Position numbers and translations under genes: made by a program. From an uncultured Ruminococcus sp. (GTDB taxonomy: Bacteria; Bacillota; Clostridia; Oscillospirales; SIG627), in contig CADBPF010000010.1 in assembly GCA_902796545.1 (NCBI GenBank), forward strand, positions 1-39,105: DNA of 39,105 nt, read 5' to 3'. The notes below the pieces were generated by a model, which was not told the origin of the DNA, did not search any database, and saw nothing but the letters and a program-made list of their open reading frames with translations. Positions 38,676 through 38,993 of this stretch are shown piece by piece; the first letter of the stretch is position 1; each line of letters starts with the position of its first letter.

Positions 38676-38752
38676 GCCCTCGTAGCCCAGCTGTATAGAG
38701 CGACCGCCTCCTAAGCGGTAGGCCGGCGGTTAGAATCCGCCCGGGGGCGCCA
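38676..38752 (+). tRNA. tRNA-Arg(CCU) with encoded CCA and an altered elbow pair
   Basis: A full cloverleaf: acceptor 38676-38682 with 38742-38748 (one G-T pair), D arm 38685-38701, anticodon stem 38703-38707 with 38715-38719, loop CTCCTAA with anticodon CCT at 38710-38712 (reads AGG), variable loop AGGCC, T stem 38725-38729 with 38737-38741, discriminator G38749, CCA 38750-38752. Odd points: the D loop has G18-T19 instead of G18-G19, the T loop is TTAGAAT instead of TTCGAAT (A56), and C12 faces A23 as a mismatch in the D stem. T19 and A56 restore a Watson-Crick elbow pair. The strong promoter and terminator argue that it is functional. Confidence 0.92.
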
Positions 38753-38793
38753 TGAAAGAACCCTGATTTGTCTATCAAATCAGGGTTCTTTCA
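38753..38793 (+). terminator. Terminator hairpin of the tRNA-Arg gene
   Basis: A perfect 18-bp stem (38753-38770 with 38776-38793), 5-nt loop, starting on the base after CCA. Only a short T-run ends the stem, so it may also be the 3' processing hairpin. Confidence 0.8.
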
Positions 38794-38966
38794 GTTCTAT
38801 TCGCCTGCGGCGAGTGATATTGGGCTTCGCCCAGTTATATTCGCTTCGCGAGTGATATTGCGCTTCGCGCAGTTAAAAGGAGAATAGAATATCACTTCTC
38901 GCGTCAGCGAGAAATATAACTGTCCCGAAGGGACAATATAACTGCCGCCATAGCGGCAATATAACT
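38793..38966. repeat. 'Fishbone' element: seven unrelated small hairpins joined by complementary 9-nt linkers
   Basis: Left-half linkers: AGTTCTATT (38793), AGTGATATT (38813), AGTTATATT (38833), AGTGATATT (38851). Right-half linkers: AATATCACT (38888), AATATAACT (38913), AATATAACT (38935), AATATAACT (38958). Hairpins between them are at 38802-38812, 38822-38832, 38842-38850, 38860-38870, 38897-38912, 38922-38934 and 38944-38957, each with a different stem sequence. Right linkers are reverse complements of left ones in nested order, two pairs perfect and two with one mismatch. The centre (38871-38887) is A/G-rich. There is no coding potential. This stretch and what follows it make up the window's only gene-free region over 300 bases. 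Confidence 0.85.
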
Positions 38967-38993
38967 TGAAAAAACACATTTATATGTTAAAAT
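38966..38993 (+). promoter_or_regulatory. Putative promoter reading out of the window
   Basis: TTGAAA (38966-38971), 16 nt, TAAAAT (38988-38993). It starts on the last base of the fishbone element. No complete gene is visible behind it before the window ends; an ATG at 39100 has AAAGGAG 16 nt upstream, which is too far for a normal start. Confidence 0.5.

Follow-up and report, generated by a model that had tools for sequence, protein, structure and literature searches.

The seven-hairpin palindrome behind a tRNA-Arg gene of an uncultured Ruminococcus sp. is probably one copy of a mobile DNA palindrome selected for its shape. It would belong to an element family in which a hairpin array is followed by a promoter and the gene of a four-helix-bundle protein (PF05635). 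We regard the feature as a palindromic repeat with a partner protein, and as one that has a real chance of forming a class of its own. The window, i.e., the whole stretch of 39,105 nucleotides that was analysed, ends with its contig at position 39105, shortly after the promoter-like site adjoining the array.

Structure of the array

Base-by-base reading of the region 38801-38958 bore out the seven stem-loops with unrelated stems described in a first-pass annotation, and both the tRNA terminator and the promoter said to adjoin them were found (Table 1). The linker length had to be corrected: the 9 nt given earlier had counted in the outer A-T pair of the adjoining stems, and the real unpaired linker is 7 nt. 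The left linkers read, in order, GTTCTAT, GTGATAT, GTTATAT and GTGATAT, and the right linkers ATATCAC, ATATAAC, ATATAAC and ATATAAC, all of 7 nt. They are complementary in nested left-right order as claimed, with two pairs perfect and two carrying one mismatch. Right-half loops in this copy are for the most part of the GNA/GNNA type. In a relation absent from the first-pass annotation, positions 38795-38805 are complementary to 38879-38889 with one mismatch, the match being perfect in a second copy (L002), so that hairpin h1 would compete with a start-centre stem.

Table 1. Features of the array in the window and its immediate surroundings.
Feature	Position	Strand	Stem-loop-stem	Basis and remarks
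tRNA-Arg(CCT), 3' end is CCA	38676..38752	+		ARAGORN and Rfam tRNA; the element sits behind it
H0, perfect 18-bp terminator-like hairpin directly after CCA	38753..38793	+		Terminator scan
Left half: 4 linkers, a hairpin (h1-h4, TNC loop) after each	38794..38871	+		Sequence; Rfam Gut-1 match
5' strand of start-centre stem, TTCTATTCGCC, overlapping h1	38795..38805	+		Sequence; same layout in relatives
h1	38801-38813		TCGCC-TGC-GGCGA	
h2	38821-38833		TGGGC-TTC-GCCCA	
h3	38841-38851		TCGC-TTC-GCGA	
h4	38859-38871		TGCGC-TTC-GCGCA	
Centre; 3' strand of start-centre stem, GGAGAATAGAA, at 38879-38889	38872..38888	+		Sequence; L002 alignment
Right half: h5-h7 with 4 linkers between and after, reverse-complement counterpart of left half	38889..38965	+		Sequence
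h5	38896-38913		TTCTCGC-GTCA-GCGAGAA	
h6	38921-38935		TGTCCC-GAA-GGGACA	
h7	38943-38958		TGCCGC-CATA-GCGGCA	
Promoter-like site TTGAAA-16-TAAAAT directly after last linker	38966..38993	+		Computed scan; such a site precedes the four-helix-bundle gene in fuller copies

The structure is not expected by chance, as had been argued, and the proposed folding as RNA and as DNA gave z = -6.5 and z = -6.8, respectively; none of 200 shuffles folded as low as the real sequence in either form. Seven stem-loops within 200 bp were reached by 4 of 2000 Markov shuffles. Exact repetition of one linker alone was unexceptional: of 774 windows of the contig, 32 attained its score of 4 and 1 surpassed it. Counts of exact linker 6-mers within the window, taken by themselves, lacked significance and do not enter the argument. 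What makes the linkers convincing is the comparison between copies, not their repetition inside the window.

Relation to Gut-1 and distribution

The left half matches the Rfam covariance model of Gut-1 (RF01706) at 38792-38863 with 58.0 bits against a gathering threshold of 50 (E = 1.2e-10), and a weak minus-strand match lies at 38944-38850. By sequence, the window element is a member of Gut-1, a motif reported in 2010 from human-gut sequences only and considered a probable non-coding RNA (Weinberg et al. 2010, PMC2864571). The window's left half has the same three-hairpin layout with GUGAAAU-type linkers. The model, however, spans one arm, whereas the full element is a two-arm palindrome with H0 and a centre, extended by a protein gene in fuller copies, and its context favours DNA over a dedicated RNA. 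A literature search, with most subscription journals outside its reach, found no other paper naming the accession RF01706 and no published account linking Gut-1, PF05635 and repeats at helix-bundle genes.

Similar elements proved abundant when the genome itself and its relatives were searched, as the first-pass annotation had proposed. The family is common among gut Clostridia. Copies occupy about 8 dispersed places in the window's own genome (G000, blastn). Among near relatives, Gut-1 was present in 37 of 58 genomes, with up to 48 matches per genome, and in an evenly drawn phylum-wide sample it was present in 3 of 299. The family pattern occurs, among the matches listed, in metagenome-assembled genomes from sheep, goat, roe deer, cattle, yak, chicken-type and other sources. 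Gut-1 is not confined to the human gut; this limits the old range claim and leaves the sequence family untouched.

Insertion sites and boundaries

The window copy (L001) and its closest copy, L002, each follow a tRNA-Arg gene, but not the same one, and the tRNA sequences and flanks are unlike. In the alignment their near-identity starts at the CCA, includes H0 and runs to the last ATATAAC that both have. The last stem has been swapped and is self-complementary in both: one copy has GCCGC/GCGGC, the other GCCTC/GAGGC. Because near-identity begins at the CCA, H0 appears to have travelled with the element in this case; alternatively, gene conversion could be the source of the H0 identity. Homology in other copy pairs begins only after H0, and H0 would therefore be either exchanged or the target.

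The strain comparison suggested earlier was carried out at tRNA-Arg(CCT). The site is empty in two congeners (G001 and G002), where the tRNA is followed by an ordinary terminator and no array; tRNA-Val(GAC) is likewise occupied in the window's genome and empty in G002. Dispersed copies, near-identical copies in unrelated flanks and empty sites support the earlier proposal of a mobile repeat. Of the 68 non-redundant copies whose upstream sequence was long enough, 59 have a hairpin of at least 9 bp directly in front of the array, preceded by CCA in 40 of these 59. Some copies come after the end of a tmRNA, after a protein stop codon or after another unit's tail, and H0 and the tRNA are absent from some. 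The boundaries resolved from copy pairs contained no clean short target-site duplication. The two halves are inverted relative to each other, and in a comparison with MITEs of DDE transposases the ends are unlike classic terminal inverted repeats.

At the protein stop codons occupied by L293 and L294, the gene end and the following bases together build the H0 hairpin. In L293 one and the same junction follows both the host gene and the helix-bundle gene.

Conservation of shape

The first-pass annotation had suggested selection on shape, with stems that vary while remaining self-complementary, and the comparison between copies supports both points. Across 73 non-redundant copies, the five readable stem slots hold 27-63 different sequences each (40-63 in the well-sampled slots), and every outer stem position shows three or four Watson-Crick types. 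The outer four stem positions are nevertheless paired in 93-98% of cells, against 47-62% (maximum 72%) when the arms were re-dealt between copies; the stem parser demanded at least 3 paired positions, which builds in some of the pairing but neither the excess over re-dealt arms nor the sequence variety. When similar copies were compared, 279 changed stems were still paired and 23 were not, which indicates that the stems covary. A count of '37 compensated, 0 other' stems was discarded as true by construction. The linkers change in concert as well, the dominant left and right linkers being of the same type in 69 of the 73 copies.

The loops differ between the halves. TN(N)C accounts for 127 of 165 left loops and GN(N)A for 94 of 154 right loops, the opposite type occurring 0 and 1 times. 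Most loops are closed by C-G, and the left loops read as GN(N)A on the other strand. GNA and GNNA loops on G-C stems form exceptionally stable, nuclease-resistant DNA mini-hairpins (PMC4686876). Mainly because the loops are of this type, on one strand per half, we infer DNA as the working form. The folding substrate considered in the first-pass annotation is a candidate role that these DNA-type loops and the layout favour. An RNA scaffold, also considered there, finds no support in the context, as the terminator usually stands in front of the array and the promoter behind it.

The start-centre stem was compared with 100 re-pairings, the copies being oriented by the helix-bundle gene and the linkers excluded; orientation by start-centre complementarity itself would have been circular. 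Complementarity reached 7 nt in 15 of 39 copies; the re-pairings averaged 4.4 such copies and never gave more than 10, which lends the stem moderate support across families.

The four-helix-bundle gene and its linkers

Downstream of many complete arrays lies a promoter and then a small gene encoding a four-helix-bundle protein (PF05635/TIGR02436), with 2rld and 2gsc as solved relatives. To our knowledge, no catalytic activity has been described for PF05635 proteins. An unbiased score placed a palindromic array in front of 66 of the 102 helix-bundle genes whose upstream sequence was long enough, compared with 1 of 54 control windows. The linkers at these genes include GTGAAAT, GTGATAT, GTTATAT, GTGATGT, GTGAAGT, GCTAAAT, ATGAATT, GCGATAT, TCGATAT and others, each time with the left and right sides matched as a set.

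On the protein tree, linker class required 16 changes against a shuffled mean of 36.7. Host genome label required 67 changes (67.2 when shuffled), and host family 34 (36.2). By these counts, protein and linker travel together irrespective of host, a congruence that could arise from simple linkage within one element rather than from recognition. Gut-1 and PF05635 also co-occur across the 58 genomes (31/6/5/16, odds ratio 16.5, p 1e-5), although the genomes are related and the p-values overstate independence. No PF05635 gene was found in the window's own genome, which is 97% complete. We therefore regard the window copy as non-autonomous, probably a relic or a passenger, and it cannot by itself attest the partnership.

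In pairs of gene-bearing copies, homology often stops at the helix-bundle stop codon. In L150, L270, L279, L300, L304, L315, L354 and others, a different gene follows downstream, its start overlapping this codon (ATGA). The cargo includes nucleotidyltransferase, GNAT and Exo_endo_phos domains. Since the cargo genes vary, an integron attC site, with paired core sites recognised by an integrase, was also considered as a known kind. L279 and L300 carry homologous cargo and arrays of different linker class.

A seven-nucleotide unit

Hairpin spacing, as measured by an automatic hairpin caller, has its mode at 7 nt, with some families peaking at 5, 6 or 8. The same period recurs at helix-bundle genes that have no array: tandem repeats of period 7 or 14 lie upstream of 22 of 37 such genes and in 0 of 48 controls, and 18 of 35 have an 11-mer inverted between their upstream and downstream sides. 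This suggests that helix-bundle proteins read 7-nt units, of which the hairpin arrays would be a spaced version. PF05635 genes flanked by short tandem repeats are also present on plasmids of Treponema, Nostoc, Bernardetia and Monoglobus (L358, L359, L360 and L361), the Nostoc gene having the inverted heptamers AATTCGT/ACGAATT.

Alternative explanations

We consider it unlikely that Gut-1 is a functional non-coding RNA, its hairpins perhaps forming a trailer that is transcribed from the tRNA promoter and binds protein. In its favour are a strong RNA fold and a covariance-model score above the cut-off; the DNA fold, however, is as extreme. Several right-hand loops (GTAA, GCAA) are GNRA tetraloops, and GNNA loops such as GCAA and GTAA are stable in RNA too, but the left TNC loops are not stable RNA loops on the plus strand and become GNA on the other. 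The family was classed as a probable non-coding RNA at its first description (Weinberg et al. 2010, PMC2864571), yet a terminator-like hairpin separates the array from the upstream gene in 59 of 68 copies and a promoter lies downstream of it, while up to 48 copies per genome at scattered sites fit a mobile repeat.

Two further readings take the array for a repeat moved by a known enzyme or for a device kept by the host. In the first, a Y1 transposase (IS200/IS605 or RAYT) recognising hairpins in single-stranded DNA would move a REP/BIME-like repeat. The short palindromes, the conserved foot sequence and the intergenic, multicopy and partly non-autonomous occurrence fit this, and the window's genome does encode one Y1 (IS200-type) transposase (G000:C59:13387-13743), which is not near the arrays found. 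We nevertheless hold this to be very unlikely: Y1_Tnp (PF01797) is unassociated with Gut-1 across the 58 genomes (15/22/10/11, p 0.78) and is missing from copy-rich genomes such as G018 (44 copies), G044 (48), G024 (33) and G009 (30), and no Y1 gene was noted beside an array in the loci read, where neighbours were not systematically annotated. Equally little weight falls on a regulatory or insulating device that would lie between the tRNA and the next gene, terminate transcription in both directions or stabilise mRNA, and have spread through host benefit. The position between terminator and promoter would suit it, and hairpin plus T-rich linker scores terminator-like on the minus strand, but this reading does not account for the congruence of linker and protein, for the presence of a helix-bundle gene, for the unequal copy numbers of congeners or for tandem units such as L174. 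A reverse transcriptase was also considered as the mover and rejected, RVT_1 not being found in the window's own genome and being unassociated with Gut-1 across the 58 genomes.

Proposed mechanism and relation to known elements

For a shape-selected mobile DNA palindrome with a partner protein, we propose that the four-helix-bundle protein would recognise the 7-nt linkers, which the hairpins keep at a distance from one another. The strand-specific GNA/GNNA loops suggest that folded DNA, either extruded or single-stranded, would be the active form. The protein-palindrome complex may then serve as the substrate for copying or transfer to other terminator hairpins, mobilisation being helped by a putative host or trans-acting enzyme. 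Many copies, including that of the window, would have lost the helix-bundle gene or never had it.

More tentatively, mobile elements that have no recognised transposase may form a class here, defined by the pairing of a four-helix-bundle protein with a code of 7-nt units. One branch of such a class (the Gut-1 type) would have its units spaced by DNA mini-hairpins into a seven-hairpin palindrome, and others would have plain tandem repeats around the gene; the unit sequence would drift as a matched set, with the protein drifting along.

One of the closest known parallels, by its protein, is the intervening sequence of 23S rRNA genes, e.g., in Coxiella burnetii, which carries an S23p/IVP (PF05635) gene inside rRNA genes and is excised by RNase III (PMC4990558). 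Both would be selfish elements with complementary sequences and no known mobilising enzyme, and a PF05635 gene lies downstream of many arrays in relatives, though not in the window's own genome. The present family, in contrast, lies behind tRNAs or tmRNA, terminators or protein genes, with none inside rRNA in the loci read, and its gene is preceded by a seven-hairpin palindrome. REP/BIME sequences with their RAYT proteins (REPtrons) likewise combine intergenic palindromes and a conserved foot with a partner protein in some copies, many copies being non-autonomous. Here, however, the partner is a four-helix bundle and not a Y1 transposase, the 7-nt spacer changes as a set and seven hairpins are arranged in a two-arm palindrome. 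PF05635 also resembles Avd, the accessory protein of diversity-generating retroelements (PMC10053308), from which the present case differs in the lack of a reverse transcriptase (RVT_1) in the window's genome.

Gut-1, an Rfam family of obscure function, thereby gains a probable identity as one arm of a mobile DNA palindrome. The widespread PF05635 proteins, known from 23S rRNA intervening sequences, gain a candidate target in the 7-nt units by their own gene. Two old questions become testable, namely the target bound by PF05635 proteins and the way in which rRNA intervening sequences and related elements spread. In the array, selection would further act on DNA shape while almost any base of the structure is free to change, which is unusual in nature.

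Other arrangements and occurrences

Behind one tRNA-Trp, L174:6300-7400 holds four tandem units of two linker classes, one new unit starting exactly after TTTTTC in the tail of the previous one. Another palindrome class, with ATCCAAGCCGCAGGCTTGG followed by TATATCATCA-type linkers, occurs in G001 (L364, L387 and L391) behind the terminators of tRNA-His, tRNA-Arg(CCG) and tRNA-Leu(GAG); two of these isoacceptor sites carry a window-type element in G000.

The right flanks of L012, L103, L106, L117, L157, L174 and L185 have in common a tail, GAGAGTTCGAATTCATACGCAAAACTGCCGAAAATATCTTTTTCGTAGCCCATAG, with a T-loop-like motif and a mini-terminator. With its T-loop-like GTTCGAAT, this motif was considered as a tRNA-derived target duplication; the same tail occurs at different tRNAs, and because copies at different tRNAs have it in common, it apparently travels with some of them.

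The exact pattern had zero matches among IMG/VR viral contigs. Two unannotated human-faecal phage clones that are marked unverified, L356 (MT835590.1) and L357 (MT835815.1), carry an array together with the helix-bundle gene. In L357 the array lies behind a tRNA-Arg, and because of this neighbouring tRNA and the unverified status of the records a bacterial origin of the clones is possible.
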